Source of the DNA: Scolanthus callimorphus
Lineage: Eukaryota; Cnidaria; Anthozoa; Actiniaria; Edwardsiidae
NCBI GenBank assembly: GCA_033964015.1
Contig: JAWWUD010000101.1
Coordinates: forward strand, 372,001 to 436,000
Direction of reading: 5' to 3'
DNA length: 64,000 bases
Below the pieces are notes generated by a model. It was not told the DNA's origin. It made no database searches and saw only the letters and a program-made list of their open reading frames with translations. Both the position numbers and the translations under genes were made by a program. Shown here one piece after another: positions 13,989-52,830 of the stretch (the first letter of the stretch is position 1; every line of letters starts with the position of its first letter).

Positions 13989-14700
13989 ATATAATCACCT
14001 GCTTATCATGATATTATCAGAATAATGAATTAAGGAAGAATTTCTCCTAAGGTCCATGATATAGTGATAAATCATGATATTATCAGAATATTTAATTATC
14101 TAACAATTTCTTCTAATGCCCATGATATAGTGATAAATCATGATATTATCAGAATATTTAATTAGCTAAGAATTTCTTCTAATGCCCATGATATAGTGAT
14201 AAATCATGATATTATCAGAATATTTAATTATCTAACAATTTCTTCTAATGCCCATGATATAGTGATAAATCATGATATTATCAGAATATTTAATTAGCTA
14301 AGAATTTCTTCTAATGCCCATGATATAGTGATAAATCATGATATTATCAGAATATTTAATGAAGTCAATTTTCTTCCAAGGGCCTTGAGAGAGTGATATA
14401 TCATGATATTATCGGAATATTTAATGAGGTCACTTTTTCTTCCTAGGGCTTTGATATAGTGATATATCATGATATTATCAGAATATTTAATGAGGTCACT
14501 TTTTCTTCCTAGGGCTTTGAGAGAGTGATATATCATGATATTATCAGAATATTTAATGAGGGCAATTTTCTTCCTAGAGCCTTGAGAGGGTGATATATCA
14601 TGATATTATCAGAATATTTAATGAGGGCAATTTTCTTCCTAGAGCCTTGAGAGGGTGATATATCATGATATTATCAAAATGTTTAATGAGGTTAATTTTC
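13989..14700 (+). repeat. 66-bp AT-rich tandem array
   Basis: The word CATGATATAGTGATAAATCA recurs at 14055, 14121, 14187, 14253 and 14319, exactly 66 bp apart. Later units read TGATATATCATGATATTATC at 14394, 14460, 14526, 14591 and 14656 (66 then 65 bp). Four middle units alternate AATTATCTAACAATTT and AATTAGCTAAGAATTT, giving a 132-bp dimeric higher-order repeat. Each unit contains a long dyad around TCATGA. Confidence 0.85.
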
Positions 14701-17215: not shown

Positions 17216-17469
17216 GGGTTTTGTGAATGACTGTTTCAACTCTGACCTTGAGAATGAACTAGAGGCATTTGTGTGGAACATGTTCACTTGTAAACCCGAA
17301 AGAAATAGTGAGCCGAAGCTTATCTGTTTCTTTGATTATTTTATTGCACCTTTTTGCCAAATGGTTGCTAACCCTAGGCCTGCTGGACTTCTATAGGACT
17401 TGTCAAGAACGTGCCTGGCTATGATAACTTTATGATAATAAAATACTAACTGAGAGGACTGAAAATGGA
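17216..17469. other. spacer inside satellite composite
   Basis: Unique-looking sequence between the minisatellite and the right AT-rich array. No gene. Confidence 0.4.
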
Positions 17470-20315: not shown

Positions 20316-21450
20316 TCAAATTGCTGTGATCAAAGCCAGACTTTGTAGTTTTTTCTTGATACTTTTTGCCATATGCCAGCAGTCAAAGTAGTGTGTGACT
20401 GTTGGAAGGTTTTCCCTTGCCCATTTGGCTACCTGTTTGTGCCTATCAGTAACAAGAGCTTTTACTGCAATATTGAATCTGGCAAAAAGATTGAACATTT
20501 TTTGCAAGCCCTTGAGTTCCATGTTATTTGATGACCGTGTTTGGTTGCTTTGAACTAGCTCAACAGTTAAAACTTTATTTTTTGTGAGCTGAGCATCTGT
20601 GTATGAGCCATACTTTGCAGAATGGCCCATACTGTCACACCGTCCATCACCACCAACAATAAGCTGTGCTCCCTGTAGACTTGTAAACAATACATTCCTT
20701 TGTCTGACCCACACATTATTAACAACATTGTGCAGGTACTTTTTTGGTGTCTAAAAAAGGTATGTGGACTCATAGTAGCAATGTTAATAGCCTTCAGTGC
20801 ATTTAGAAAGCGATTTGGCAGCTGACCAGAAAACAGAATTGTACTGCTCAAAAGTATATTACCAGCTGCCATACCCCTGATTTCTGGCTGGCTTTTCCAC
20901 TCGTGCAGGGTTTTGCAGCACAAACACTTGATGTAGACAATCAGCATTGTGCTACTTTGCATATAAAACAGGGCCACATTGTCTGAGAAACAAGTTAAAC
21001 AGATAGACAATAAAAGTAACAGTTGATTGTGGAAAACAATGTACTTTGGTTGTTTTTGTGGGTGGATCTTCTGACTCTGAATCACTATTATCCTCTGGAT
21101 TATAGTCAATAGTAGTCAATATCATTAATAATATCATCCTCACTCTCAGATTTACTTGAAGACAACTCAACATCCTCACACTCGCTTACATGTACCTCTT
21201 GCCTAGGCTCTGCCCGCTGCCTTTTGGGGGTTTATTATCTATTGGGTCTGTTTGAGTCCCAACAGATCTTCTCTTTGGTTTTGGTGGCTTCCATTTTTTA
21301 GAGTTTTGATAGATCTTTGTTTTGTTGAAACTATTTCTTTAGCTGGAGGGCAGCACTTATTGCCATTATCAGGTGATGTGGACGGAGTTAGTTCCAGCTC
21401 CTCGTTTTCCGTAGGCACGGCAATGTCTTTATTCAACAAGAGCCTGCACA
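20316..21450 (-). pseudogene. transposase-like gene relic
   Basis: Minus-strand frames, read in order, give an acidic, low-complexity N-terminal part (about 21450-21060). Next is a Cys-containing region with KYIVFHNQLLLLL, CLCCKTLHEWKSQPEIRGMA and AGNILLSSTILFSG (about 21060-20830). The last part contains GGDGRCDSMGHSAKYGSYT, LVTDRHKQVAKWARENLP and HYFDCWHMAKSIKKKL (20660-20330). The DGR..S, TDRH and DxWH motifs are the repeated acidic signature of a widespread metazoan DDE-type transposase-like family; my impression is Kolobok/IS4EU-type, unconfirmed. At least two single-base frameshifts separate the parts, one in an A-run near 20740. No start, terminal repeats or C-terminus are recognised. 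Confidence 0.6.
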
Positions 21451-22828
21451 TTATATTACTTTACGAACCAGATAAACTCACGTTTCCTTAATAAAGCATC
21501 AAAACATTTAGCTTAATTAATTGGTGAACATATGAGCGGCACACTGACACTGAGTGAAGTGGCTTTTATAAGCTTTCATGTTGGGTGGTCGGTAGTTGTA
21601 TTGAGATCGCAGACAAGGCATGAATACAGTCGAAATAATAAATGGTTATTTTATTTCATGTATTGCAATTACATACCTTCTGGCGAAGCCTGCTCTATAT
21701 TGCAAACGATTCCTCCTTGAAATGCTTGCTACATAGCACCGAACAAGCAGTTAGTTCTCTCTTCTTCCGAACAAATTGGGTCCATTTCCAAGCCAAACTC
21801 GACTTTTCAGGCCATTCATGTAACTGCCGGTCAGTCTGATCACAGTTTGCTGCAACACAGCGACTTGGCATTGCAAAACGAACACAAAATCACGATAAAT
21901 ACGAGATAAAATGTTAGCTAAACATCGCGCAATTTTTGACATGCAAAAACACACGCTCGACTGAACACGATGATGGATTTTTTCGCATAAAATGCTACAC
22001 TAAATGAAACACAAGCTACATGTATTATTTAAAAGTACCTTTAATCCTTAGCTCTGACATGAAGTTTCAGCTCTCCAAGTCTACATTCAAGGAAAATATG
22101 GCGCTTTGAACTTTGAATCGACTGCACAGTAAAACAATGCAAAACCCTATCGCTCGGGATACCTGTGGTAAGCGAATGACATTTCATAGCGCTCTCACCC
22201 TGTATTGACAGATTAGACAAAAGATTTATATAAGTCTTTTTGCCCTGCAACAATTAAAAGCAAAAGCATCCTCAGTTGCTTGCTTTTTATGTCTAAAACA
22301 CAGATTCCTAAGAACTCTGTGCTCAGGCAAAAAGATTCCACTAGAGAGGGGCCAGAGTTTCTTTGACCAATATTTTTCAACAGCTCTCAGAAGAACAGTG
22401 GAAAAAGTCAATGAAACCCCTCAGCCATACTTCTTACTTGAAGCACAGCACAAATGCATTGTCCATAATAGACTTAATGATGTCCTATGGCCTCTTCTGA
22501 GTGGAATTTTGGTTAAATTTTAAGCAAAGTTATCAGATGTCTAATCTGTGCGATAGCTTCCCGCCACTGGAAAGCAACGAATGGGTCAGCGGTAAAGCTC
22601 TACAGAAAGCCCCAGCCTCCTTCTCAATAAAAGACAGGAATACCAGAAACTCGGCACTGTTATGCAAAAATGGGCAGGGGTGTTTCTGTTATCTCTCATA
22701 AAATAAGGAAATTAGGGAAAATGCTATAGGGCTGAAAGGGTTAATGAAGGCAAATTCAAAAGACATGAACAAAATAATATAGGTTTGTTTAACAGCCTTT
22801 CAACTGCTAGCTAATTTGGATTATATTC
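21451..22828. other. non-coding
   Basis: No supported gene or clear repeat. Several short frames exist on both strands without family features. Confidence 0.4.
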
Positions 22829-23049
22829 ATGTGTTTAGAGCGGATTGAATTGGATTACGAAAAGGCATTTTGGATTTCTTACCAGGCTAAACAGTTTTCA
22901 AACCAGCGAAAGCTAATATATAGATTTAGGCAATGCCTAAAAGCGGAACTCCAATCATACACAACCACACGTCTTTACTCACAGGAAGCTCACCTTTACA
23001 GTTTAAATCAAGAAAATTCATGTTACCATTATATGGCAATGATAGTATT

Positions 23050-23225
23050 AGCACGTTCTAACAAGTCACAGTTCACGACCGACAAAAGATATAATCTCCT
23101 TGAAATAAAAATGAAAAATAAAATTTTCAGCGAAATCCACAACATAGTATTTCCCTCGTTGTACTAAATCTAACATGTGACAAAGGAAAATCAAGGCTAG
23201 AATATCAGACATGACCTGTTTACAC
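23050..23225 (+). repeat. interspersed repeat B, copy 2
   Basis: The plus strand matches the minus strand of 8235-8430, with CAGTTCACGACCGACAAAAG, AAAATTTTCAGCGAAATCC and AGAATATCAGACATGACCT. The 112-codon frame over 22829-23167 partly overlaps this repeat and is therefore not accepted as a gene. Confidence 0.6.
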
Positions 23226-24810
23226 AAGGCAAAGCAGGGCCAAAAAGTCAAGCTTACTCAAAACTATAATTCGAGTTTAGCCGGAGAAAAAGAAACCTTG
23301 AGGGAGCCAACTAAAGCAGCAAAACGTAAAAGTTACATTAAAGTCAGAATTTTCTCATCAGGAATGCAGTAAACTTGGAAGCTAAAAATATAAATAGCAT
23401 AAGAAGCAATTTCAAGCTTTGTGCTTACCGATAACTGATAGTGAAGTCGTTTCTTTCCTCCGAAAGTCTCCGTCGTGTTGAGTTGAATTCATTCTTACTC
23501 GGCAAGCTTTTGCACAAAGCCAATTTTCCTAAATATATTATTCGGCTAAAACCATTGCAATTTTCTGTTATTGTCAATCCAGTTCTGTGGCTCCCTGATC
23601 GTAGATCTCATATGAGTATTCGAAGAACACGTCGTTTGCAGCTTTTACGAAAGAAACTGTTGTTTTTCTTCAGAAGAACGCCGAAGTCTTGCTTCGCCGT
23701 GGGCCGGGTATTCTGCAAAATGTTTCTCCAAAATGAAATATGAAATATCGGCGAAGGAATCGAGTCCGAAGTATTTTGACAATCATTAGAGAATTCTTTT
23801 GAGCAAATTTGGCGTGGTTCGCACCCACGAGTTCGTCTCAGTTGGACTCAACAAAAATTTCGTCTGATAATGAACTCAAGTGAGCCGACGCGGGCGCGTG
23901 TTTTGTGAGTTTTTTCGGCGGGAAAATGAAGGAGCGACTTCCGGTCCGTGTCCTCTGCCAAGCACCGCGTCAAAGCACCGCGGCGCTGTGCTGGAGGACA
24001 AAATGACCCGCGCGCTCAGTGATCCAAGACGGACTGTGATTGGTTGTGTACACGGGTCGCCAAAAACGCAAGTGCGCATGCGTAAATATGAGCCCGCGAT
24101 GTTTTCGTAAGCCGCTGAACGTATCGTTTTGGCTTGGATGGGGTGCTTTCTCATGTGACGTTGAATGATACGTATGGGGCTGCACTCCGTGCCTTCGGCA
24201 CGGGGAGTTCCGCTATAAAATCTTACGTACGAATGCCTTTATAATGTAAGTTTCAATTCCTTTTTTCTTTTTAACACTCAATAATAATATAATGTGGGAT
24301 TCTGAGTTGTTTTTGTGGATCACTGGTCCTATTTTATAACATTTTGTTGAAACAACCGTGTGACATAGCCCCTTTATAAACTTACCTGTAAACACGATTC
24401 AGATCCGCTTGACAATATCGCGAGTTCACGAGTGTGGACTTGGTTATTCCTTCTTTGGACATTAACAACCATTATTCAGTCGAATTTCCGCAAAAAGAAG
24501 CAACAGGTGATGAAAATCCCTCACTAAATGACCGAACCATCGACATCAGTCATCGCCTGCATCGAAATATTGGTTGTGATTGTAACATTCTCGAACCCAG
24601 ATCTTCTCCGCTATTTATTACTAGATTTGGGTTCCCTGTGGTATAGACGGGAAAGCCGGGGGAAAGGGGGGGGGGGGGCAGGACGATTGTTTGTCCTTGT
24701 TTTTACCACGAATTTGTGCCCCCACACAGAAGCCCCGCGCATTTGTATTGTCTTCTTGCTGTTGAGATGCCTCTGGGGAATGAGATTTCTATTTTCGGCC
24801 GATTAGTATA
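23226..24810. other. non-coding, one GC-rich patch
   Basis: No gene is supported. Positions 23880-24110 are notably GC-richer, with CpG-rich words and a TGCGCATGCG dyad. Open frames exist on both strands there, but none is recognisable. A G run at about 24666-24678 lies in the next part. Confidence 0.4.
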
Positions 24811-24819
24811 TATAATAGT

Positions 24820-24897
24820 TGGATGATTCAGAGGAACTCCAACATTGGACGAGGCCGCAGGCCGAGTCCAATTTGGAGTTCCGAGGAATCATCCATT
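24820..24897. repeat. foldback hairpin
   Basis: TGGATGATTCAGAGGAACTC at the left and GAGTTCCGAGGAATCATCCA at the right pair around the GC-rich GAGGCCGCAGGCCGAG centre. This resembles the other small palindromic elements of the window. Confidence 0.65.
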
Positions 24898-25629
24898 TTT
24901 TTCTTAATTGGACAAGCATGGAGTCCTGTTATTTATTAATTATATAACATCCATGTTCAAACCCAAACTGTCCAATTTTAGCGCGAACTGTCCAATTAGA
25001 GCGCGCGCGATCCAATTAAAAAATAATTGGACGATTCAAGAAAAATCGATCTGCCGGCACAATGGGATTTCAAGCTGGCTATATAATTATGCACTAAAAT
25101 GGGACTGGGATTTCTGGGAAATGGGAATTAGACACCCCCTGCATTGATAACCCTGTAATTGGTTAACTTGGCTTTGCTTGTTGTAGTTACTCGTTAAGTG
25201 TAGGTTTTAAAAATAACTAAAAAGTAACGTTTTAAAGCAATTAGGTTTTTGCGCATGCGCTAATGACGTCATTGGTAGTGTACTTTTCATTTTCCCATGT
25301 TTTGTAACCTCCTACACTTGAGATGACTAAAAAAGTACCGAATTGAAACAAACCTGTTTTTTGGTAGAAATAGGTAGCACCCCACATGGAGAAGTTAAGT
25401 GCCAATTTGACCTATGTATACTTTGGCGGAGGTATAGAGGTAACAGAGAGATGCCAGTAGTTTTAGACACGCTAAGTCCCGCAGATAGCTCGAGAGGGGG
25501 AGGGAAAGGATAAATAATCAACATAAATTATGCTAATGTAGAGTTTACACCGGAGTGAGTTACACCGGAGTGAGTGACATCGGGTCCCCACTACAACTCG
25601 GGGTTACCATAGTAACCCACGAGTTAAAA
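24898..25629. other. non-coding
   Basis: No gene. TTGGAC/GTCCAA words recur around 24906-25030. TACACCGGAGTGAG is repeated at about 25546 and 25560, and GGGTTACCATAGTAACCC (about 25601) is a near-perfect dyad. Confidence 0.4.
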
Positions 25630-25980
25630 ACCGTTTGCGGGAATTTTTATTTTTTACTTGAAAAAGATTGTAAAAAATAGTTTTGTAAATATGCAAAATA
25701 TCGAAAATCGCTCACACGGTTTTGCAGTTCATTTATCTGAGAATAAAATCCGACAAAGTGCGAAATTGTGCAACAAACGGCTAGTGGTACGTCTGGAGCT
25801 TCTCAAGTAAACAAGGTAGTTTTTAGTAAACTTCGATAAACTAAAGAACTTCATAAGATAGAGCAATCTTTTAGCTTTAAAATGATATATAGCTGATTAT
25901 CATAGCATAAATTGCGACGAGACGAGAATTTGTTTCTGAAGACACCCCTCACAGGTTTGCAGATGCATTTAAGATGCTTG
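25630..25980 (+). repeat. interspersed repeat A, copy 2
   Basis: The first 230 bases match 2330-2640, and the last 100 match 4555-4665. The two partial copies elsewhere are therefore explained as pieces of this longer repeat. No coding content. Confidence 0.65.
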
Positions 25981-26398
25981 TGTTGCTTTTAAGGATCACT
26001 TGGCTCGCTTAGCTACAAAGATGCAAATTTTCGACGTTCGTTCCAGCTCGAGAGCTACACCAGTTTATTATACTCAAAACCATAGGAGATGGTTCTATCG
26101 GTGATTCAACGCTCATTAGCGGCACAGTACAGGACAGACATCTAGAGCTTCATCTAAGATGTGTGCCCTAGCATTAGCCTCAAACGAAGACTACTAGATT
26201 TTGGTGAATGTAGGGGCTTGAGACTCAGAGTTCCGGCCATAATAACCGAAAACAAAATTAACAATGTGTAGAGGACTTTCTATTTTCTCTAGAAACATGT
26301 TCAAAATCATCAAAAGGCAATTACCTGAGCCACAAGCAAAATGCAAATTGGGGTTGATTTTCGCAATTTGGGGTTAATTTTGGCGAATTTCACGAGGC

Positions 26399-26407
26399 AT
26401 TCTGCAG
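26399..26407. other. 9-bp target-site duplication, left
   Basis: ATTCTGCAG directly abuts the outer end of the left inverted repeat. The same nine bases abut the outer end of the right inverted repeat at 37983-37991. Confidence 0.75.
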
Positions 26408-26601
26408 TAGACTGCTTGCAGCCCCTTCTCCGGCGAACGTCCGTAAATCGAGAGAAGCGAACGTCGAGAGAAATCCCGCGGCGGCGCGCTTCGGTTTGTT
26501 TACAAGTGTCGAGTTACCAGGAGAGAGAGAGAGACGCGCCACGGGGGGAAAACGCCGAAAGAAGGGACTGCGGACACACCATTCATAAAACTTGACTTTT
26601 T
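26408..26601 (+). repeat. left terminal inverted repeat
   Basis: The sequence from TAGACTGCTTGCAGCCCC through GGTTTGTTTACAAGTGTCGA to ACTTGACTTTTT matches the complement of 37982-37756 with almost no mismatches. It holds one full and one partial copy of the unit CGAACGTCCGTAAATCGAGA plus GAAG. A run of AGAGAGAGAG lies in the middle. Confidence 0.8.
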
Positions 26602-26788
26602 CAAAGGAATTTCACTTGAAAGATCTGATTGGCTAGAGTGTAACGATCTATCAGCGCCGAGCCAATAACCTCTTGAGGTGTTGATGGACGTAGACCGTGA
26701 CGTGCTTTCGCTGTAATAGCTAACCAAGCGACCTTTGCCTTGGTTCGTAGCGCGTGACAAAACATGACAGATTTTGACCTTAGTAAGG

Positions 26789-26922
26789 GTTAGAGAATGG
26801 ACGCGAGTGTTCTATGGGATATAGACCACTAATGAACAAAAATCTGCGAGCGCGTTAGCGCGAGCAGATTTTTGTTCATTAGTGGTCTATTTCCCATAGG
26901 ACACGAGCGTCCATTCTCTAAC
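26789..26922. repeat. 134-bp near-perfect palindrome (foldback)
   Basis: GTTAGAGAATGGACGC at the left mirrors GCGTCCATTCTCTAAC at the right. The inner arms TAATGAACAAAAATCTGC / GCAGATTTTTGTTCATTA are perfect. The loop is GAGCGCGTTAGCGCGA. It is nested just inside the left TIR of the large element. Confidence 0.85.
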
Positions 26923-28158
26923 TTTTTTAGAACATGATCAATGCCACGAAGAAAGTCTTTTGAACGTTTTTGTGCTAGCTTGTCATTGAAATGTCAACAT
27001 CATTACAGAGCATTGTTCAGAGCCATACTTCATCCAAGGCTTTTTACAATAGTAGTGTCAATCAAAGCCTTGTGAATGAAACGATCTACCGACAAAGCGG
27101 TTTGTTTTGAGTGCATGCATTGTTCTAATTAATTTCCAAGTGTTTGTTTTGAGACGATAGCAGTTGAAACTGGCCATATACTGGAGTTGCTGACAGGTTT
27201 CGTTCCCGAAGTCAGGTAAGAAATGAAAATATTCTATCGCAAGCTTTTGTAATGGATTGCTCGACTCCTATGGCCCAAGGAAAAGGGAGAAACAGGAAAG
27301 CGTACATAAAATCTCGGTCTCGTTATCAGAATTCGTAAATCCGTAAAGTTTGGATCGAACACCGGAAATTGAACTCAGAAGTCGCATTACAGCGGAACAT
27401 TTGGTAAAACATACTTTTGAATTGACAATCTGTTTCTTCCCGGGGCTTTCTTATGAGAATTGCAAGAGCGCTGATGTTCGAGGCTGGCAAAATTCGAAGT
27501 TTGTTTTAGCAGTTTGAGACTCAAATGTTCTTCAAATGCCTCGAGACAGCCAAGAGTTGAGTGAATCAGACAATAAACTGATGCGCGAAAGGTAGAAGTT
27601 TTTCCCTTAAAAATACAGTACGTTATACATGAAAAGGGAACATCAAAATGCAAAATGTTCGTGGAGAAACTTTTAGGTATTTGCTATGCTTAACTACAGT
27701 ACAAAAAGCCATGCTCTTAGGGGGCTCTCGCACGCTTGCTGGCCACTTCTCTGACAAGAAAATAGCTCAAATCGCAATCCAATTCCATCGTCTTGATAAC
27801 TTGTCAAAACAACCTAGAATTGCATTTGTCCAACACTTGAAAGGTTTTTCTATAAATCTGGAGGACTATTTTGATTACTACGGGAAAATATGCATGTGTT
27901 TTTGCGGTTACTATTTCACTTAACTTAAGGTTCTTAATTTCTTGCCTAACAAAACTTCGAATTCTTATAAACGTGGCTATTATAAACAAATTGCAATGTT
28001 GATAATGTACTAATTTTGATTTGTTTATTTTGTTATAGAAAGATGTTGGAGAGAGACTTGTAATAAAGGGCTATTTTGCAAAAGATGACAATGAAGTCAA
28101 TGTTTTCCTTTATTTTGTAGAGTTGGTTGTGTCAAGCGGCGAGGGAAGAACAGGGTGT
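26923..28158. other. 5' region of the helicase gene, no frame supported
   Basis: No coding frame is recognised. A consensus-like splice donor (GTCAG|GTAAGA) near 27215 and an acceptor-like TTTTGTTATAG near 28040 could bound a 5' UTR intron, which is speculative. The short frames at 27387-27653 (minus) and 27648-27923 (plus) lack family features. Confidence 0.35.
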
Positions 28159-28320
28159 GGTTTGTACATAGTCATTAGTATTCATGCCCATAGTCATTAG
28201 TATTCTCTATGTTGCACCTTGGTTTTCTTTGTTCTTCTTCAGGAGAACAATGAAAATGCAAGGTGCAACCAGAGAATATTAATGACTATGAGCATGAATA
28301 CTAATGACTATGTACAAACC
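28159..28320. repeat. 162-bp foldback just upstream of the helicase
   Basis: GGTTTGTACATAGTCATTAG at the left pairs with CTAATGACTATGTACAAACC at the right. The middle arms AGGTGCAAC / GTTGCACCT also pair. Each arm carries two copies of CATAGTCATTAGTATTC or a close variant. It ends about 70 bases before the first helicase ATG and might affect its promoter. Confidence 0.8.
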
Positions 28321-28391
28321 CCTAATTTTCCCTATTGTTCAATGCCCTCGCCGCTTGACGCTTTAGTTTCTATGGGATATAGGGGACGCAA

Positions 28392-28882
28392 ATGCCGGTT
28401 GCTGATTGGCTGAGTGGCATTGGTCATGTTCTAATTCTTGATAAGTGTTGTAGTGATTTCGCGCTTCCGTCTCCGAGAAGAGAACAACATTCTGCAGTAA
28501 CATCTCTACTCAAAGGGATCGACGTTCTTGCAGTACTTCCAACAGGTTTTGGAAAAAGTTTTGTTTATCAACTCTATTTCTGCGCGGCCAGAGGGCTAGC
28601 GCTCGCTGCTGGCAAGGAAAGACCTTTAGTGTTTGTTGTGTCTCCATTAAAATCGATCATAATCGACCAAGTTAAAGACCTAGATGACCTTCAAGCGAAA
28701 GGAATATCGCTTCCTAGCCACGACGCGATCGAAAAAATCGCAAACAACGAAGTGGACGTTGTGTTTGGATCTGCTGAGGAGTTTCTAAAGCAAAGTTTCT
28801 TGCAAGGAGTCCGCAGATCCCAGGAAACTCGAAAGAGATTGTCACTGGTGGTTGTAGACGAATGCCATACCGTAGAAACATG
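28392..28882 (+). CDS. helicase exon 1
   Basis: Opens with an ATG and ends at ACATG|GTAAGT in phase 2. It carries helicase motifs 0, I, Ia and II. The first 15 or so residues look unlike other RecQ N-termini, so the start could lie downstream or in an upstream exon. Confidence 0.75.
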
Positions 28883-30834
28883 GTAAGTTAAGCTTACATT
28901 TATCGTACATGCTTCTTCTGGATAATCACAATTTTATAGTATATACATTGTTTGTTTGCTTCGTGCTACTAACGCTGGGTGAGTGCCATATTTTATCACG
29001 TACGTGATTACGAATTATTCTGATTTTGTTTTTAGGGGCAAAGGGAAAAAGAAAGGAAAGAGGCGTCCAGAAGCCTTCCGAAGTGCATTTGCAAACTTAT
29101 CTACACTCAGGTCATTCAGCGAAGGTAAGAAGTGCGAGAAATATTATTAATCTCTGTTGAATTATAACGCAAAGTTGCGTACGTGGTATTTACCCTGGCC
29201 GGACGGCGCTTTAAAACAAGTAAAGACTTTATAGCTAAAGTTTAACTTACAGGTTTTTGCAGAATGATAAAAAGTTTTGCAATAAAGGAATATTCCGTAG
29301 AAATTGACCAAATGTAATTTCACATTTTATGAATTGACAGGTTTAACTTATAAGCTTAACAATATTCAGGGGATTTTTCTCAGGAAATTATAGGGCTCTC
29401 CAGTATTTGGTGCAGAGTGGTATTTGTTGAACCAGATTTTGCTTATAGCTTAGATTTTGTTCTGCGGTTTTTGTAAGAATATAAGCTTAATATTATAATT
29501 TTCACCATGGTTAAAAAATTTCATTGCATTATTCAAACAGTTGCAGTGAGAATAGCAGGCAAAAACATAAAATCGTCTTGAATGGTTAAATAGCAGCAAC
29601 TCTGTGCCTAAAATGTGTACCTTTTTTTCACCAGGTGTTCCTGTTTTGGCATTGACTGGAACAGCAAATGATGCAATGGTAAAGGCTATAAAGCAAACCC
29701 TTGCCCTAAAGGACTGTACTACAATTCGACTAAGCCCTGAGAGGAGAAATCTTCGATATTCTGTGAGGAAATGCAGTCGACAAGCTGAGCTTACAAACCT
29801 GAGCTGGCTTGTGGAAAGCATCAAAGAAAATGGAATCCAAACACCAAAGACTATTATTTTTTGTACAACCATGACTGATATTGCAAATGTGCTAGGTTAT
29901 TTGCTTAGCAAATTAGAACATCATGCATATGCGAGCCACCTTCCCTTGTCTGTATCAAGCAGACTCATTGGAATGTATCATTCTATGACATTATCCAAGA
30001 ACAAGGACAAGATTTACGACTCCTTTAAGTCAGACAAAGGTGTGGTTCGTGTAATAATTGCCTCGTCTGCATTAAGTATGGGCGTCAACTTCAAGGATGT
30101 GAGGTATATAATTCACATTGGGCCTGCAAGGTCGTTGGTTGACCATGTTCAGGAGTCAGGGAGAGCTGGTCGTGATGGCCAGCTGGCCCACAACATTATT
30201 GTGTACCGTGGACAAAGGCTGTCTCTCTGTGAGCAACCTGTAAAGGACTTTGTTAAAGCGTCTGGGTGCCTGCGGCAAGCTCTTTTTACCTTTTTTGACA
30301 TGTGGATTCTGTAAGTCCACAACACAACTGTTGTATAAATTGTGCTTTGGAATGCAAGTGTGATGGGGATTCATGTACTCAAGAAAAACTCCCTTTTGAA
30401 GATGAAGAGAAAACGGAAGCGTCAATGAAAAAAATAGCCGTGAGGTAAATGATGATGACAAGGCTGTTTTGAGAGAAGCACTGCATGAATACAGAGCTAG
30501 TTTAGAAAGGGGAACCTCCTCATTGTTTGACACAACAAGCTGTCATGGACTGTCTGATGAACTTATCGGTGACATTGTGGATAGTGCACATGAACTTTTT
30601 ACCTTGGATGATATGCTAGCAAACATCCCCTTTTTTTCTGTCAAACAAGCATTGTCAGTGTTAGAACTGTTACATGAGATTTTTGAGGATATTCCATCAT
30701 CAAAGGGTGTTTTGTTATCTATGCAAGAAAGGGAAGTACCAAATCCAGCCAGTGAACTGCATGACTATTTTGATGATTCTGACAGTGACATCGAGGTAGA
30801 TCTTGTGAATGATGGAGAACTTGAAAATTTGTGA
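28392..30834 (+). CDS. RecQ-family DNA helicase gene, three exons, lightly damaged
   Basis: The family is ATP-dependent 3'-5' DNA helicases. Exon 1 (28392-28882) has motif 0 (REQ, Q32), the Walker A motif LPTGFGKS (residues 49-56) and the DECH box VVDECHTVETW at its end. Exon 2 (29036-29124) supplies WG and basic residues. Exon 3 (from 29635) has motif III LALTGTA, motif V SALSMGVNFKDV and motif VI QESGRAGRDG. Junctions are GT-AG and frame-preserving (phase 2, then phase 1). The main frame stops at 30314. A Cys-rich tail resembling the RecQ zinc-binding region continues in another frame (30299-30448), and a third frame runs to 30834. A TG duplication (30301-30304) and a seven-A run (30428-30434) explain the two shifts. 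It is convergent with the DUF6589-like gene. The true 5' start is uncertain. Confidence 0.75.
29036..29124 (+). CDS. helicase exon 2
   Basis: An 89-nt exon between TTTTTAG and GAAG|GTAAGA. It completes the Trp of the DECH-box segment and encodes a Lys/Arg-rich stretch followed by AFRSAFANLSTLRSF, as expected between motifs II and III. Confidence 0.75.
29635..30834 (+). CDS. helicase exon 3 with two frameshifts
   Basis: Starts after TTTTTTTCACCAG in phase 1. The continuous frame covers motifs III-VI and stops at 30314. The Cys-rich segment HNCCINCALECKCDGDSC follows in another frame, and the acidic C-terminal tail ending at TGA 30834 in a third. Confidence 0.7.
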
Positions 30835-30869
30835 AAGTGGAGATAATTTTCTTTCAAGTTGAACTTCCC

Positions 30870-31035
30870 CGCTCCTCAAAACCCATGAGGGAGGCTCTGG
30901 TAACATCCATTTGTGGCTCTTTGCTGATTGGCTGATTTTGAATCTTGCTGCAAGTGCAAAGTTCTTTCTCTCAATGACTCTGTATGCATCAGTGGCTGTT
31001 ACCATAGCCTCCCTGGCAGGTTTAGAATAGATTGG
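30870..31035. repeat. small TIR element at the helicase 3' end
   Basis: ATGAGGGAGGCTCTGGTAAC (about 30885) and GTTACCATAGCCTCCCTGGC (about 30998) are near-perfect inverted repeats, with weaker pairing outside. It lies in the intergenic gap between the two convergent genes. Confidence 0.6.
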
Positions 31036-31453
31036 GTTTACACCAAAGCTAGACCAGCATAATGCCTTCATTGCATCCTGTTAACTCAGAAACCGCCTAA
31101 AGGCACAACTCATCTCCATAAAACATTAGAGTAATCGAGACCTGTACTATTGTTCTCCAGTTTATTAAATATATACAAGTTAATTGTTCTTAAATTTTTA
31201 AATGTTTGTACATAATTTCATTATTGCATACATGCAATAAAGTGTTTTAAATTGTGAAAGGCTTGTATTACTACTTTGCATTGGTCATTTGCAAAATACA
31301 TTACAGCTCTTTCTCATATCAGAATTTATTGATGTTAATAACTGAAAATTGACTTTTCAGCCTTCTTTCTGGAGCTTCTGGATCTATCCAACCCTATACC
31401 CCTGGATGATTTAATCCTAGATCTGAGACAGAGAATAACCCTCCTATAAAAAA
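31036..31453. promoter_or_regulatory. shared 3' intergenic region with poly(A) signals
   Basis: AATAAA on plus at 31236-31241 could end the helicase transcript. TTTATT at 31325-31330 and 31161-31166 gives AATAAA on minus for the opposing gene. No coding frame. Confidence 0.4.
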
Positions 31454-34400
31454 TCAAACCTCATAAATGCCTTTCCAGGTTTGGTGCAATGACTTAATCC
31501 AGTCATAGAGGGCTCTGTAATCTAACTGGCCAAGAATATTTGCCCTTATTTTAGGGAAAGAATTGTAGCCAGCCCTGCCAGGAGTATATGCAAACACATT
31601 ATTTGCTATCAAATCTGACACTATTACTTTAACACTTTCCTCCTTAGCTTTAGGGTTATGACGTAACATCAGACATTTCACAATCTGCATCACACGTCGC
31701 CAAAATGGCTTCTGTTGATGCTAAGAAGCGTGCAATTCTGTTAGCTGAGGCCTCACTGAGGTCTGCCCCTAGCACTTTCAAGCATCCTTTAAGGAGGTTG
31801 TTTAGCTGTTCAAGACGGAGGTCAAGTGGTATATTGCAGCCAGCTCTGCCATGTGTGTTACAAAAGCGGTTAGAAATAAGGCTTTCTGCCTTTTTAGCAG
31901 ACAAGAGCGATGTTACTTTGGTTAACAACAATAAAGTTGTATAGGCATACTTGGTACGACCATAACTCTTATAGATTAAAAGAGCAAACTTGTACAGGTT
32001 AATGAGCCTGTGACCATCTCCTTCTTTGATAGCATCGTTGATGTCATGCAGAAGAAGACCAAATCGTAATTTTGCAACATGATAGTTACGCTTGTAGTCT
32101 TCCTTGTCTGGTTCTGGTTTCTTGTTGGGAGCAGGCTGCTCGGTTGGTAGTTGCAGGCTTGGGTGTTTCTGCTTTTCATGTCTAAGAACAAAGTGTTGAT
32201 AATAATTTCTGTGAGATTCCATTAAATATCCATATCCCCTCCCCCCGTGCAGGGTACTATTTTTTGAGACCCCCTCCCATCATTTGGAGGGGGTGGCAAT
32301 CATACCCACCACCCCCCCATGAATTTACAAAAGACCCATTGACAAAGAGTATCCAAGCAAAAGTAAAATAAATGATTTCTGAGTGAATTACTATTTAGGA
32401 CTAATGTTCTAAAGTTATTGAAGTGTACCCCTAAGAAATTTTATTCTCTCAGACCCCGGGCCTGTGCGTTAAAGGGGGGCCCCCTTTGAGTGAGTTAGAT
32501 GGGGGGTCCCTTTTTAGTGAGGGGGGGGGGGGGGGGTGTTGCCTTGTGATGTTCCTACCTCGTTCGTGTAGCTTTTGTTTTATAAACCAGTCTACAGGTT
32601 GGGTCTCTGCACTTGAAGCAGCCAGAACTGTCCCTCTCATCAGTGTCTGGTGTATTTGGAGTTCTGAGATCTGGGTGCACACTAACCTCATGCCTACAAA
32701 AGTCCATTCAAAGAAACAGTAAGTTACAATATAGACAAAATCTTGAGATTTTAGTAGAAATACAAGAATTATTATAAATATGAGGACATAAAAAAGTATC
32801 TGGGAGGAGTCTCTTGTAAAGTTTTGGAGAGTTGGCATGTATGTGATACATACTGCGTGCTCATGTTGACAATGTCATGTCTGATCACAGACTACTCTGC
32901 ATAAAACCTTACCTTACACGTCCTGACTGAAATTTGTATCTGCGTTCACATCCCTCGGCTCTGCAAACAAAGCCTCCTGCTTCCACTTCAGCAAGTTCTA
33001 GCACTCCATCTGTGATTCTAGTCACATCTGTGTCCATCACATACTAAGTAAAGATAATGAGTTTAAGACATTTATTACCGTACAAAAACTCTAACAGAAA
33101 TCATGCCAACTATAGCTGCTATTGTAGCTTACACAAGAAATGAATCCATCTATTAACTGATAGAGCCATGCTCGCTTATTCTCTTGGGCTTCCCATTCCT
33201 CTGGTTCATTCAGCTCAGAGTTGATGTCACCTGAAAGATTGAAGTGTGTTGTAACTATATTGTATGTCATGTCATAATATTCAATTTTCATACCCCCCCC
33301 CCCCCCACACATACACACCATTATGTCATGCCATCATGATACATCTTCATACACACTCTCTATAACCTATGACCTCATCCCCCCACACACCATTATGTCA
33401 TGCCATCATGATACATCTTCATACACTCTCTCTATAACCTATGACCTCATCCCCCCCCCCCTCACCTTCTCTTGATCACTTATGTAAAAGTATTTTCTGG
33501 AACTACACAATGCCAAAACAATTTACAAACCACTAATTGAAGACATTTTGCAGTAATTCATGAACGCTGCAACCACATGAGCTTCCAACTCTCTGTCATG
33601 GAATTCACGATATGCATTGTAATCTTTTTCAACTCCTCTTTTGGCATTAGTTTTCCCAGTTCGGTTTATGGAAGCTGTTGTTGTTCCTATTTCACTAGCT
33701 GATTCTGCCTTCAGAAAGATCTTATTTTCAACCTATAAAACAAAAATTATAACACATTTGAGAAAGTGTATAATCAGCCTAGTCACTCCCTATATATGAT
33801 TTGTTGAATTTCATTCCTTAAGGGGACAATCACTTATAATATTATCACTTATGCAGGGTACCCTAAATGGGCCAAGTGGCACAAAATGGTCTTTCTACTA
33901 GTATTATAGATATTTTAGACCTACACTGTATAGATTGACTTTAGCATGCCAGTCTGCATGTAGTGGGTCCAGCCCTTCTATCCGATCATATGGGTTATCT
34001 CCATCCTTGAATATCCACTGGATGTTCCTTGCCCTCTCCTCGGTGAGCTGGTCACCATCCAAGAAGACAGAATCTAGGATGTTACTTTCAGCTAATGGCA
34101 CATATGACTCCTGATTCTTCATCAGCAGCTGCGCCATTTCCCCGCCAATATTGGGGTTTACGAATTCTAAGCCCAGGCAGCACTGCATGTACAAATGACA
34201 GACATTTTCATCATTAATAAATAGCTAGCAATGCATGAAAGGGGGATTTCTTATATCCCAAGAATTACTGATTTCACACAATGAATACTCATATGGAGGC
34301 ATAGAATATTATTAGTGTAAAAAGAAGCTACAAAAAAACTACTTGAAAGGATTTGTTAATTTTCCTGTGAATTAAAAATCCAATTTCTATCCAATTATAG

Positions 34401-35360
34401 ACAAGATTGTGGGGCTATAAAAATCTAAACCCCCTTAGTAGACACTTTTAAGTAGACCTCCTCAGCTAGGTCATAATCTTCCCATTTCAGATCACATGGC
34501 ATTCATACAAATATTATTTCTTTCGTCTTCTGCTACGTACCAAAGGATATATGAATATGGAAGCATTACGAACTAAGAAATATATTCAAATGAATGACAC
34601 ATTATCTGGGAAAACAATTACACCCAAAGCCGAGGAGGTATATTTACAGAATGCAGTTTCAAGTACCACTTGAAATAATTACAAATTCTGAATTACAAAC
34701 TCTCCTGGGGAGGGGGTGCTCTTATGCATGTAAGTTAAAGTGAAAGTGAAAGTGTAAGTTAAAGTGAAAGTGCTGGAAAAAATACCACAACAGCAAACAA
34801 ACAAAACATATCTATATATAAACTGTATTGCATCACTCACAAAAAAAATCAAAAATTAATAAAAATAATAAATTGTCTTACCACATCTGATTTCTTTGCC
34901 ATTTCCACAGTATATCTGTGTGGAATATGATGCACCACCAGCTTTCTGTAACAGGAAAACCTTGGGATGTACTGTGTAATAATTCTTGAAATCAAAACAA
35001 AAATCTTGTCTCAAGGCCACATTTGCTTGAGCTGTAGGTAGCAGCTCTTCCATGTTGATATCGGCGATTGATTTCTGCGGTTTCTGGTCACTTTTGTGGC
35101 TGCATGCCACTGGCACTCGATCAGCAATCGCATATTGATGAGTCCAGTGGAGGGATTGGTTTCCTGCAGCTGTGGACTGAATCCGTGCCTTAACAGAAAA
35201 GTCCAGGTTGTCTGCAACAATTCTGTCAACGAAAATTAACAATGGTCACAAAGAGGTTGAGGGAGATCATAAGGGTTAATCAAAAAAGCCTAACAATATA
35301 TTGCTCCAGGGGGAGTACTCAGGAAAAGACACAGCCGCGTAGCCAGGAATTTCTGAAGGT

Positions 35361-35404
<44 letters not shown>

Positions 35405-37551
35405 GAAAATGTTCAAATTTCCTTCAGCAAATACAGTAAATGTATGGGAAAATCTCCCGAGAAAGGGAGGGGGGGCCTGGCCCCCTCTGGCTGAAAAGAC
35501 ATGATGACAAGGGGAAAGGCCATGGAGCTTTATATTGGCAACCCCCCTTCCCCATGGCAAGGATTAATGACACTCACTTCTCCTTGAGGGAATGATGCTA
35601 AAGCTGTCAAAACAAGCAAGTATATATACAAGTAACTAAAAAAACATGATGCTTATAGCGGTGTACATGAAATTTTGTATTGCTTATGGCAGACATGTAC
35701 TACTTTTATAGATATTATTAGTGTTCTTAACATGTTGACCTGATAGGGGTGCTCGTCATATTCTTTAAGGGTCAAAATTGACTCTCAGGTATTTTTTAGG
35801 GTGCATCGGAGAAACATTGTGCCTTTCACTAATAAATGGTATTTCTTTAGGGGTACGCAAATGAATAAAAGGGTCACAAACCAAGTAAAACGTTTTCTTT
35901 CTTTCTTTGTTCATTTATAGCTCTAAAATGAAAAACATAAGCAATAACAAAAAAAGGTTTATTGTTGGTATTTTTTAGGGGTCATTTTGTTTGATAAGGT
36001 ATTTTTTAGGGGTTGGATTTTTTGTGTCCTGGTATTTTTGGGGTATATTTTCGGATGTCCCGACAAGCACCCCTATCACTCTTATAACATGGGAGAACAC
36101 CCCCCCCCCCCCCCCCCCCCCCCCACCACACACACACACACCGGGATTGGAGAATTTCAATGTCTTTTAAATCCGATAAGACTGCAATACACGTATTCGT
36201 AAGCTTACCTGTACGTTTTCCCTGAGGTTGTGAGTAGCTGATTTCGAACCTCGTCTACACTGGAAGTGCTAACGCCTTCTGGAGCTGCCTTGACAATTTT
36301 CTCTAGAGTCTTTTCAGTGTATGCAGGGCAGGTCTCTGCGTCTTTTTTGCTAAGACTTAGCTCCACATCGACCTCCATATCGTCCTCGCTGTACTTCGGG
36401 GTTTGACTTTCTTTTATTTCGTCAAGAAGCTTTACACTCTGAAGTACTTCTTTTCGTGACGCTTTCCATTCTTGAACTTTACTATCAAAGTTCTCTCCCA
36501 TCGCAGTTTGAAAGCGAATGCTTTCCTTGTGTGAAACACACAGACCCAATTTGTTGAGTCGTTCGAAGTCGCGAGACTTGGCACCGCTGTGTAGCAAAAT
36601 GAGAGACACCCTTTTCGCTAGTGCTGACATTTTAATGTTTCTTTTCCGCGCTACAACAGCAGTAGCAAGTGCCACGGTGTTATCACTCGCCTCCATATTC
36701 TTGCCTCCTATTGCCGCAGAAATTGCAGAGTACCAAGTGGGGAACATCGTCTTGGCCTCGTGCGCCACAAGCCGGTTCTGAAGAGTGGCTACTTCTTCAG
36801 GGGTAGAATGCTGAAGCATGGACGTTTTGTTTTTAAACAAGTCCCGGAATTCAGAGGAGATTTGTGCAGCAAATGAGCATTGTAAATGCTTCTTTAAGCC
36901 TTGGTGCCGTAATATGGCTCTACTAGCCGCCTTGTACCTGTTGTTTACGAGATACTTCACAACGGCAGCAGTACGGGTATCTTTGATGCGCCTTTTCTTT
37001 CCGGAAAGGGAAACTAGAATGCCATCGGCGGGAAGACCTCGTCTTTGCTTTGGCTTCTCGCATGCATTAACAGGCAAAATATTTCCAAGATCAGTTGCCT
37101 GGTCAGGTTGCTTGTTTTCCTTTTCAGGATCGTCCAAAAAGCTAATCGATCGTCTGGCCAAGGAGCTCGATCTCTCTTCAGCACTTGGTGCTTTTTTCTT
37201 GTGGCCTAAGCCGGGCGAGTTATGTAGACGCTTGAAGCGACTTGGGGAATTTCCCTGGCTAGTTGAAGTCGGCAAGTTTTCCCGCAAGAAGGCTACGCTT
37301 GTATGAGCACCGCGAATCTTAGTAGCGCATTTCGAGCAGCATTTTTTCCCCGAGCTCACGTTGAGGCCAAGATCCTTTAGAAGTGATAACAGTGGTTTCT
37401 TCTCGCCGTAGCTTTTGATCAATTCTACTTGTGGCTGGATATAAGGGCCACTTTTGCCATAAACTAAGAAGCTATTCTTGCAGATACTGCACTTTGAATC
37501 TTGTGGGAGATGTACCTTCCTAACCGGCTTTGTTGGTGTATTCAAGAGCAT
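31454..37551 (-). CDS. eight-exon DUF6589-like gene with C2H2 zinc fingers
   Basis: Exons run 37551-36209, 35222-34882, 34166-33925, 33732-33531, 33230-33133, 33043-32913, 32693-32559 and 32208-31656. All seven junctions are GT-AG and keep frame, giving about 1,014 residues. The N-terminus has a paired-Cys module (C21, C24, C71/72, C75) that may bind zinc. The middle has IGGEMAQLLM, GDQLTEERARN, DPLHADWH and a downstream EAHVVAAFM, which I associate with the DUF6589 family of unknown function. Two C2H2-type fingers follow (CRAEGC..H..H and CRDPTC..H..H). The end has NTHGRAGCNIPLDLRLEQLN. The frame stops at 31656, but a further conserved-looking tail (31693-31454) continues in another frame, probably after a small deletion. 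The start lies about 200 bp inside the right TIR. A role in transposition is inferred. Confidence 0.7.
31656..32208 (-). CDS. DUF6589-like gene, exon 8
   Basis: Begins after TCTCACAG. The first residues include the histidines of finger 2 (HFVLRH). It continues through a helical region to NTHGRAGCNIPLDLRLEQLN and stops at 31656. An overlapping frame (31693-31454) with YTPGRAGYNSFPKI looks like the displaced C-terminus. Confidence 0.75.
32559..32693 (-). CDS. DUF6589-like gene, exon 7
   Basis: A 135-nt exon after CTTTTGTAG. It begins with the two histidines that complete finger 1 (HEVSVH), which confirms the junction, and then gives the cysteines of finger 2 (CRDPTC). Phase 2 in, phase 2 out. 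Confidence 0.7.
32913..33043 (-). CDS. DUF6589-like gene, exon 6
   Basis: A 131-nt exon between TTTACTTAG and GTAAG|GTAAGG. It encodes TDGVLELAEVEAGG and the two cysteines of the first zinc finger (CRAEGC). Phase 0 in, phase 2 out. Confidence 0.7.
33133..33230 (-). CDS. DUF6589-like gene, exon 5
   Basis: A 98-nt exon between CTTTCAG and TCTTGT|GTAAGC, encoding an acidic, Trp-containing segment (NEPEEWEAQ, WLYQLIDGFI). Phase 1 in, phase 0 out. Confidence 0.7.
33316..33459. repeat. 72-bp tandem duplication in an intron
   Basis: Two near-identical copies starting CACCATTATGTCATGCCATC at 33316 and 33388, each ending in a C-run. They lie in the intron between exons 4 and 5 of the DUF6589-like gene. 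Confidence 0.8.
33531..33732 (-). CDS. DUF6589-like gene, exon 4
   Basis: A 202-nt exon after TTTTGTTTTATAG, open throughout, encoding KAESASEIGTTTASINRTGK and a downstream ELEAHVVAAFMNYCKM. Phase 0 in, phase 1 out. Confidence 0.7.
33925..34166 (-). CDS. DUF6589-like gene, exon 3
   Basis: The acceptor is GGGCTTAG, the only nearby AG that keeps the frame; the donor is ACAGT|GTAGGT. It contains the signature GDQLTEERARN and GLDPLHADWHAK, the firmest link to DUF6589. Confidence 0.7.
34167..34881. other. intron 2 of the DUF6589-like gene
   Basis: 715 bases of AT-rich intronic sequence. The only notable content is a short imperfect repeat of AAGTGAAAGTG/AAGTTAAAG near 34732-34772. Confidence 0.5.
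34882..35222 (-). CDS. DUF6589-like gene, exon 2
   Basis: Acceptor TTCGTTGACAG, donor TGTG|GTAAGA; phase 2 in and phase 1 out. Encodes IVADNLDFSVKAR, HWTHQYAIADRV and NYYTVHPKVFLLQKAGGAS. Confidence 0.75.
35330..35550 (+). repeat. poly-G interspersed repeat (G42)
   Basis: CGCGTAGCCAGGAATTTCTG is followed by an uninterrupted run of 42 G (35361-35402), then by GGGAGGGGGGGCCTGGCCCC downstream. It sits in intron 1 of the DUF6589-like gene. The run length may be limited by sequencing or assembly. Confidence 0.65.
35741..36078. mobile_element. TIR-bearing MITE in intron 1
   Basis: TGATAGGGGTGCTCGTCA (35741) and CGACAAGCACCCCTATCA (ending 36078) are inverted repeats with one or two mismatches. The interior has repeated GGTATTTTTTAGGGG words, also seen complemented in the MITE at 38861-39307. 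A 25-C run (36100-36124) follows directly. Confidence 0.7.
36100..36124. repeat. C25 homopolymer
   Basis: An uninterrupted C-run followed by a short CA repeat, inside intron 1 about 85 bases from the exon 1 donor. Confidence 0.9.
36209..37551 (-). CDS. DUF6589-like gene, exon 1
   Basis: A 447-codon exon from the ATG to ACAG|GTAAGC (phase 2). It encodes the paired-Cys module near the N-terminus, then a Ser/Lys-rich linker with basic clusters (possible nuclear localisation, such as KKRRIK), and a helical region. Confidence 0.8.
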
Positions 37552-37755
37552 TGCATGACTTTCATTTGCGAATTCATGAAAGCGATGAAAGACAAGACGT
37601 GGACAACAACGTGAAATGTGATAGTCTATGTTAATAACAAACCTACACGCATCCGGTTCTCATCAATAAATTGATTGGCATGCTTGACATTTAGTTGTCA
37701 TCGATTTCATTCAGGGATTATTCACATGCAGGGTGAGAATGATATATTTGACAGA

Positions 37756-37982
37756 AAAAAAGTCAAGTTTTATGAATGGTGTGTCCGCAGTCCCTTCTTT
37801 CGGCGTTTTCCCCCCGTGGCGCGTCTCTCTCTCTCTCCTGGTAACTCGACACTTGTAAACAAACCGAAGCGCGCCGCCGCGGGATTTCTCTCGATTTACG
37901 GACGTTCGCTTCTCTCGATTTACGGACGTTCGCTTCTCTCGATTTACGGACGTTCGCCGGAGAAGGGGCTGCAAGCAGTCTA
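37756..37982 (-). repeat. right terminal inverted repeat
   Basis: The complement of the left TIR, with three copies of the 24-bp unit TTCTCTCGATTTACGGACGT plus TCGC where the left end has about one and a half. It ends GCAGTCTA at 37982 next to ATTCTGCAG. Confidence 0.8.
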
Positions 37983-37991
37983 ATTCTGCAG
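37983..37991. other. 9-bp target-site duplication, right
   Basis: ATTCTGCAG, identical to 26399-26407. Confidence 0.75.
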
Positions 37992-40829: not shown

Positions 40830-41700
40830 GACTAACAAACTGTTCCCTCAGATATCTGGCTGCAAACCATTAAGAATTTTAAACATTAAGGTGCACCGTG
40901 ACTCCTTTTGTCTAACAGTAATTTTCTTCCAACCCAATTTACTTAATACATCCTTACTGGGTGTGTCAAAAGCTGAATTGGTAGAATGCTCCAATGCCAC
41001 TTGCAACTTTCTTAGAGATGTTGTCAACGTGGGCTTCCCATGACAGGCGCTCGTCAATAACAACTCCAATTAATTTTGATATCCACATTGTCAAAGTTTG
41101 AAAGCCTCTGTGTAGTACCCAATAACATATATTCCGTTCTTGTAACGTTAACCATTGACTGATGCTATTGAGGTCGTAATTTTAGTTAATTTAATGTAAT
41201 TTAGTCTGTATTGGATCAGCAGAAGCAACAGTAAGATTTGTGTCATCTCCATACATCCTTGCTTTAGAATACTTAAGACAATTCGGTAGATCATTCACGT
41301 ATAAGAGGAACAACAAAAGACCGAGTATACATCGCTGAGGGACTCCACAATAGATCGACCTTGGTGCTGACAGTGATCCGTTCACAAAGCACTGTTGACT
41401 ACGACCCGACAGATATGACCAGAGCCAAGCCAACGAAGATTTACCCAAGCCATATCTGTCGAGTTTCTCTAAAAGTATTGAATGATCGACCGGGTCAAAA
41501 GCTTTGGCTAAATCTACGAACACAGTTGCATCAATAAGCCAATGGTCTATATTAAGATACCATTCGTTTTTTGATTCGATTAATGAACTAAGAGTAGAAT
41601 GTATCAGTCGAAAGCCTGACTGACACTTACTCAGGATGTTATTATCCTGTAAGTATTTATACAATTGGTCAAAAACCAGTCTTTGACATTGCAAGTCAAC
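40830..41700 (-). pseudogene. LINE reverse-transcriptase relic (CR1/Jockey-like)
   Basis: The minus-strand frame 41694-41191 begins inside the RT domain: LYKYLQDNNILSKCQSGFR, DATVFVDLAKAFDPVDHSIL (catalytic Asp of motif A), GVPQRCILGLLLFLLYVNDL and the catalytic box YGDDT, where YADDT is usual. Downstream, after frameshifts, are GVVIDERLSWEAHVDNISKK and a final segment with LMFKILNGLQPDI (to about 40848). Endonuclease and N-terminus are missing. It converges on the plus-strand LINE tail at 40265-40800. Confidence 0.75.
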
Positions 41701-41930
41701 TTTAACCTACTAGGCTCGGGCCATGTCCTCTCTTAAATATCATCTTCTTTCGCGCATTTGTCAACAAGGGGATCTTCGAATCAACAGTGCCTATCTGTGA
41801 CATACATACATACATTGTTACTGCCGTGGCCTCGTAAGGACTTAAACCTAGCCCAGATCACACTTCCTGTGCCAATGTGCGTGGACATTGCGCTCCGATG
41901 TGAGTGATTCTGGCCGGGTTTGATCCATGG

Positions 41931-45554: not shown

Positions 45555-46429
45555 TGTTGGTTTTGAAATTTGTTTTTTCATGTCAAGAGTGTTAATTTCG
45601 ATAAATTTACCACTGATAAGTAAATAGATTAGTTCACTAGTTATGACAGGTTATCACTTCTAAAATGTCAAGCACGCCTTTGTAGGATTTATATAGCTCA
45701 TATCGTCGACCGTGGTAGACACGCCACAATTTATAGTCACATATATCAACCGTTTGCAAATCTACAATCATCTATCCTACTTGGTGCTGCGTAGACAAAG
45801 TAAGTCAACCTATTCTCATTATTAAACCATCTACAATGACTAGTAAGCAAATCTATAAACTATGTTCTTGTGACAAATTATTACTAGCTCGCGTGATTTC
45901 ATATTCAATTCAAGTGCAACATGGGTAAAGCACTAAGTACAGACTTAATCTCGTTATATTGTACAACATTTGGACGGCATATTATGCATTGATTTGTGGA
46001 TATTGTGTATATGTCCCTTGTTATACAAACTTTGTATGATCATTCTTGCTAGAATTTGTAGCTATCATATTTGTTATCGCACAGTGTATATGCATGCGGC
46101 ACCGCCTACGTGTAGTTTGGCTTAGTTTCCCAGTATTTGCCTACGGAGAGCAAATACCCCTGTGCCGCCTGCAAATACTATTACACTATATGTAACCTTT
46201 CGTGTTTGCTTGATTTGTGATTTGCTATAGTTCGGTTTGTAACATTTATTTCAGTTCGAACCGTCATCATCGTCGTCATTGTCATTTCATCTACTATAAC
46301 TCCATCGTATCAAATCTCTTCAACCGAATGTATCATAATCAACGTAAATAAACTGTATAAAAAATTATCAAGACGAGTTCGATTGCACCATAGCACCAAG
46401 AATCCCGCCTAATGTAATTGGGAATTACA
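45555..46429 (+). repeat. 5' LTR of BEL/Pao element
   Basis: 875 bp, TG...CA bounded. A possible poly(A) signal AATAAA lies at 46347-46352 near its end. It is identical to the 3' LTR as far as I could compare by eye, except for six versus five A at about 46358. Confidence 0.92.
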
Positions 46430-46577
46430 TTAAAGTTCGAATTTTGTCCACGAAACCTATCAAGTCAAAAGAATTCGAAGAATTGAAGCGATTTCCCAAG
46501 ACTCATCTGGCATACATCTGTGTCACTTGATAAAAGCAATTTGGCTCCGCTAATATCCTGTTTAGCCGCTATCGAAA
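46430..46577 (+). other. leader of BEL/Pao element
   Basis: 148 bases between the 5' LTR and the gag-pol ATG. The primer-binding site should lie at its left end, but I do not recognise the tRNA it would match. Confidence 0.5.
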
Positions 46578-52700: not shown

Positions 52701-52830
52701 AACGAACACTGAACACTTTATCATGAACATTTATATAACCATCATCATTATTGTATCTTATATTTAGTCTAAAATTTCAATCCCTAGCCTTATATACATG
52801 ATTATAAATGCTTTCCCTTAGTACGCATTT

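Follow-up and report, generated by a model that had tools for sequence, protein, structure and literature searches.

Among the DNA transposons with which the locus described here can be compared, Kolobok elements target TTAA, MULEs typically combine long terminal inverted repeats (TIRs) with 9-bp duplications, and the nuclease of AcademX elements is of the XPG type, while we know of no helicase partner for the P element, hAT (Hermes) or RAG1/Transib. Helicase-encoding AcademH transposons are reportedly found in animals and fungi, to go by the title of one article. The sections cited here list a RecQ helicase in Academ (PMC3627910) and describe AcademH as a helicase-encoding lineage with 9- or 10-bp duplications and AcademX as carrying a nuclease in place of the helicase, with 3- or 4-bp duplications; the length of the duplication in Academ is proposed to follow the enzyme carried, helicase versus nuclease (PMC10045372). 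In the section cited, KolobokH is a DDD/E transposon with RecQ downstream of the transposase, described only from fungi (PMC9587614).

We analyzed a 64,000-nucleotide stretch of DNA (the window), in which positions 26408-37982 are a discrete DNA transposon copy of 11,575 bp. Its TIRs contain two blocks that are 100% complementary (58 bp, 26408-26465 versus 37925-37982; 138 bp, 26464-26601 versus 37757-37894), and the arms span approximately 194 bp on the left and 226 bp on the right because the right arm has extra copies of a 24-bp unit. The original prediction, made from the letters of the window, had claimed an 11.6-kb element with near-identical inverted repeats of about 0.2 kb, an exact 9-bp direct repeat outside both ends and two convergent spliced genes inside, and all of this is borne out by the following features:

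26399-26407, no strand: target site duplication, left copy ATTCTGCAG, an exact match to 37983-37991 that adjoins the TIR.
26408-26601, plus strand: left TIR, starting TAGACTGCTTGCAG, with the 58- and 138-bp blocks 100% complementary to the right end.
26789-26922, no strand: subterminal fold-back palindrome with 65-bp arms (91%), no function assigned.
28392-28882, plus strand: RecQ helicase exon 1, DEAD domain with Walker A PTGFGKS and DECH box (PF00270, E 1e-16; BLM and RECQ5 PDB chains; motifs).
29036-29124, plus strand: RecQ helicase exon 2, small, an open frame matching coral homologues (e.g., P0054/P0055), splice sites set by eye.
29635-30834, plus strand: RecQ helicase exon 3, encoding Helicase_C, a CC..C...C.C zinc motif of the RecQ type and the C-terminal region (PF00271, E 4e-15; translations, motifs, relatives).
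31454-32181, minus strand: DUF6589 C-terminal exon with KEGDG and with LDLRLEQLN, which holds the candidate catalytic Glu; its frame breaks near 31716 (PF20231, E 4e-19).
32560-33732, minus strand: four middle DUF6589 exons (33732-33529, 33230-33133, 33043-32913 and 32694-~32560), read from the translations and aligned with homologues.
33925-34182, minus strand: DUF6589 exon with ADWHA and with GDQLTEE, which holds the candidate for the second catalytic Asp; 3' splice border uncertain (PF20231 in the open reading frame 33904-34224).
34882-35222, minus strand: DUF6589 exon whose DNLD motif holds the candidate for the first catalytic Asp; its frame breaks near 35000 (translation, homologue alignment).
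36209-37551, minus strand: DUF6589 N-terminal exon with Cys pairs (C..C ... C..C), 447 codons open, 89 related places in the host genome.
37757-37982, minus strand: right TIR with three 24-bp tandem units at 37886-37957.
37983-37991, no strand: target site duplication, right copy ATTCTGCAG, exact and adjoining the right TIR.

The word ATTCTGCAG alone is weak evidence, since it is also present within the element (28489-28497) and 0.63 chance matches are expected in the window; the weight rests on its exact abutment to both ends, which recurs elsewhere with other 9-mers.

The plus-strand gene is a RecQ helicase, as had been proposed, with Pfam DEAD and Helicase_C domains, BLM, RECQ5 and RECQ1 chains as relatives in the PDB, and the RecQ-type zinc motif. 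Among approximately 8000 candidates scored, its best match was a protein of the coral Oculina patagonica (48% identity over 87%), and further relatives came from corals, Paramuricea, amphioxus, goby and acorn worm. The DUF6589 gene runs on the minus strand from 37551 down to approximately 31454 in eight exons, with a product of about 1080 amino acids and two Cys/His zinc-finger-like motifs within the middle exons (32560-33732). Its relatives, again among approximately 8000 candidates scored, are found in the octocoral Paramuricea, the hydrozoan Clytia, fishes, amphioxus and mussel; none of 57 pattern stretches in viral contigs and none of 168 in prokaryote genome contigs was confirmed as a relative. 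A 26-bp transposase exon considered at 35603-35578 was dropped because the frame is kept when it is skipped.

The helicase frame of the window copy is broken near 30312 and 30440, and the open frame of the helicase exon is 247 amino acids long versus 423 in related families; for the DUF6589 exon, the corresponding lengths are 207 versus 743. To judge from its sequence, the window copy is decayed and probably inactive today. The broken reading frames of both genes were overlooked in the original prediction. Additionally, a second copy on another contig (C2) has the same right flank and an N-terminal transposase exon that is 98% identical, with one stop; it is without the part corresponding to window 20417-33290, left end included, and probably represents either a duplication or the second haplotype.

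We then compared the locus with the rest of the host genome (597 Mb), in which a DUF6589 profile search found 103 places and a helicase-exon search at least 150. A RecQ match lay within 10 kb at 83 of the 103 DUF6589 places versus 0.5 expected by chance, and the orientation was convergent in all 83 (median gap, 2443 bp); duplicate contigs raise these counts but not the proportion. Taking the N-terminal exon as the start gave RecQ within 25 kb at 55 of 76 loci (53 convergent; 0.9 expected). For the remaining 20 of the 103 places, with no RecQ match within 10 kb among the at least 150 helicase places, helicase matches beyond those listed, decay and insertions can each account for a part. The convergent pairing of DUF6589 with RecQ is fixed, and it is the rule in this genome; both genes belong to the transposon. 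The majority of DUF6589 places, moreover, are multi-copy with a RecQ partner and not lone host loci, and other TIR-bounded elements carry the same pair.

The left TIR yielded at least 58 matches in the host genome (best 40 of 1449 candidates scored), many of which start at exactly base 26408. Twenty loci of the window family (family A) were fetched, 12 of them with both ends, and several of these 12 were short, internally deleted or MITE-like forms. Three further families, delimited by aligning copies against one another, bracket the same gene pair: family B (three copies; measured copy, 11,326 bp), family C (four copies; 11,102 bp) and family D (two copies; 9,410 bp). Their TIRs start with TTGACTGC in family B and TAGCCTGC in families C and D, versus TAGACTGC in the window family. 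Copies within families B, C and D are about 99% alike, and the similarity ends sharply at the element termini. Recent movement, which the original prediction had read from the near-identity of the TIRs, fits these families, but the window copy is decayed.

Exact target duplications flank 19 of 22 two-ended insertions, the window copy included, and all 19 are different; 16 are 9 bp and three are 8 bp long, and TTAA is not among them. The other three insertions (L010, L022 and L023) have flanking repeats that agree at 8 of 9 positions. Since L022 and L023 have common flanks, and those of L010 and L011 are almost the same, these are probably the same insertions on duplicate contigs, and the count of 22 probably includes some insertions twice. 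The search of the assembly with the TIR, which the original prediction had suggested, thus returned copies with a shared end base and other flanking 9-mers.

Pre-insertion sites were searched with the flanks of 13 insertions, joined with one copy of the duplication (best 40 of 1244 and best 40 of 7000 candidates scored; L011, L012, L015, L016, L027 and L028 were left out). Uninterrupted sites elsewhere in the same genome were found for six of the 13, mostly because the insertions landed in repeats. For L009, all 40 matches listed span the junction at 96-98% (best 40 of 1244 candidates). The search with nine full-length insertions listed 41 matches, 40 of which span a junction (best 40 of 7000 candidates): 22 for B_C7b, 10 for D_C169, six for B_C12 and one each for B_C7a and C_C10. 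Among the matches listed (best 40 of 1244 or of 7000), there was none for the window copy (A_win), L013, L026, C_C1a, C_C1b, C_C4 or D_C13, which does not imply absence elsewhere. L016 is inserted in a short tandem repeat, the adjacent units of which are uninterrupted. The empty sites, along with the sharp duplications, establish insertion.

Which protein moves the element was approached through predicted structures. AlphaFold models made for two DUF6589 relatives look similar to RNase H-fold proteins, the fold for which the original prediction had proposed to look; for the better model (pLDDT 74.4), DDE transposases rank first, and for the poorer one (pLDDT 56.9), SPT6 and glucokinase rank above ISCth4. 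Foldseek gave no match at E <= 0.001, and its top row was RAG1 at 0.061. D, D and E columns are conserved in the DUF6589 alignment, and a helical insertion precedes the last acidic residue in the predicted fold. Given the RNase H-like models, along with the conserved acidic columns, the DUF6589 protein is very probably the transposase; its nature as an RNase H-fold DDE enzyme is supported but not proven. Of the two roles offered originally, recombinase or cofactor, the former is thus the likely one. Pfam PF20231 (DUF6589), a family of unknown function, can now be regarded as probably a DDE transposase, for which candidate catalytic residues are named; this assignment is the useful part of the result. 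The term DUF6589 was absent from the literature searched; the link between this Pfam family and these transposons may not be in print there, and may exist elsewhere.

Most probably, the DUF6589 transposase binds the long TIRs via its zinc-binding modules and excises the element, which would be inserted at staggered cuts approximately 9 bp apart, giving rise to the 9-bp duplications. Excision, as opposed to copying, is suggested by the predicted fold. The RecQ helicase, as the constant partner, may unwind or remodel the ends or the repair intermediates. Since the elements have a RecQ helicase gene and 9-bp duplications, they answer to AcademH by description, and we infer their membership from this helicase content and duplication length. 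In our judgment, it is highly likely that the window element is a cut-and-paste transposon of the AcademH lineage, with DUF6589 as the transposase and RecQ as its partner.

Alternatively, the elements might form a separate superfamily that resembles AcademH, in which a DUF6589 DDE lineage unrelated to Academ by sequence acquired RecQ independently. This is unlikely, and we would give the same low credence to its fuller form, in which DUF6589 and RecQ are a superfamily of their own, PF20231 is a transposase, and the obligate helicase shapes the 9-bp staggered insertion by a P/hAT/RAG-like enzyme. Homology between DUF6589 and the Academ transposases is putative, a point in favor of this reading. 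The XPG domain was not found in the nine translated window pieces scanned (Pfam, E <= 0.001). Moreover, none of the 29 XPG_I places in the genome has any of the 103 DUF6589 places, or RecQ, within 40 kb, as a separate superfamily would have it; this test is, however, of little power, since L052, the sole XPG locus opened, reads by eye as what we take to be an EXO1-like host gene. KolobokH, in the section cited, offers the precedent of another superfamily that acquired RecQ (PMC9587614), but gene content and 9-bp duplications jointly match AcademH as described in the sections cited (PMC10045372, PMC3627910), which argues for the AcademH assignment. Hence, the opinions that the element was probably undescribed and belonged to no nameable superfamily are probably wrong, since RecQ in Academ and the 9- to 10-bp duplications of AcademH are in print and, as far as the cited sections go, that description fits (PMC3627910, PMC10045372). 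The families reported here are probably new families of a known lineage, and an undescribed kind is improbable.

Two other readings would place the transposase outside DUF6589. The TIR length and the 9-bp duplications would suit a Mutator-like (MuDR) element or a Pack-MULE that captured two genes; yet no MULE or other known transposase domain was found in the nine pieces (Pfam, E <= 0.001), although a weak match might be masked by the broken frames. Diverged families, each with TIRs of its own, repeat this gene pair in one and the same orientation, unlike sporadic capture, and DUF6589 is itself transposase-like, which makes this origin extremely improbable. We also regard it as very unlikely that DUF6589 is an accessory DNA-binding protein and that an unseen transposase acts in trans. 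The fold matches are middling and catalysis by DUF6589 is putative, which this reading accommodates, but a product of about 1080 amino acids with conserved acidic columns argues against it, as do the DDE transposases in the top structural rows of the better model; moreover, no further long gene was seen in the four families.

Beyond the locus itself, a single animal genome is seen to harbor a large radiation of transposons that carry a helicase and were active recently; its copies look identical, and empty sites are numerous. It thereby becomes directly testable why a cut-and-paste transposon carries its own RecQ helicase, and whether this enzyme determines the long duplication of 9 bp. The recent copies are an unusually good set for testing the purpose of this enzyme.

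Of the known systems, the P element, hAT (Hermes) and RAG1/Transib resemble the DUF6589 models, for which an RNase H-like fold with a helical insertion before the last acidic residue is predicted, but differ in sequence (approximately 8-14% identity in the VIA rows). KolobokH, according to the section cited, likewise has a RecQ helicase alongside a DDD/E transposase, but it is described from fungi only, with RecQ downstream of the transposase, whereas the window element has separate convergent genes and no TTAA. AcademX would belong to the same superfamily if the AcademH membership holds; it is described in the cited section with a nuclease and 3-4 bp, unlike the window-type elements, which have RecQ and a length of 8-9 bp for all 19 exact duplications. 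The closest likeness is to AcademH, compared by description in the sections cited: the helicase gene lies inside the element and 16 of the 19 exact duplications are 9 bp long, while the three of 8 bp set the window-type families apart.

The transposon, probably of AcademH type, carries two fold-back palindromes in the stretch that separates its left TIR from the helicase gene, either of which could form a hairpin, and the window around the transposon holds two tandem arrays and three retroelement stretches:

Repeats and retroelements in the window
14005-14692, tandem array of 66-bp units
15065-17216, tandem repeat, 48-bp unit, about 46 copies
26789-26922, fold-back palindrome, 65-bp arms
28159-28320, fold-back palindrome, 50-bp arms
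41191-41706, LINE-like reverse transcriptase fragment (RVT_1)
45555-53716, BEL/Pao LTR retrotransposon, 2044-aa open frame
55594-60736, minus strand, second BEL/Pao-type element, several open pieces

Since the LTRs of the first BEL/Pao element are 100% identical over both compared blocks (300 and 70 bp), its insertion was probably recent. The right part of the window's transposon insertion was found again on another host contig (locus L048, C2:19486000-19495990), where the portion corresponding to window 20417-33290 is missing, a large deletion either in a haplotype or in a duplicate.

Elsewhere in the host genome, four related N-terminal exons of DUF6589 proteins lie on one strand at a spacing of about 1.45 kb (C9:2409979-2414856), forming a tandem array. 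No RecQ match was found within 25 kb of these exons, and the array is possibly a domesticated or decayed derivative. Additionally, some DUF6589 proteins of amphioxus and fish (P0008, P0013, P0033) bear extra precomputed Pfam domains, which may reflect gene-model fusions or host-transposon chimeras.

The search for the XPG_I nuclease domain gave matches at 29 places in the host genome. The single place inspected (L052) looks like EXO1 by eye, and several others fall into equal-score sets. An animal is usually expected to have only a few XPG-family genes, and the count of 29 exceeds this number.
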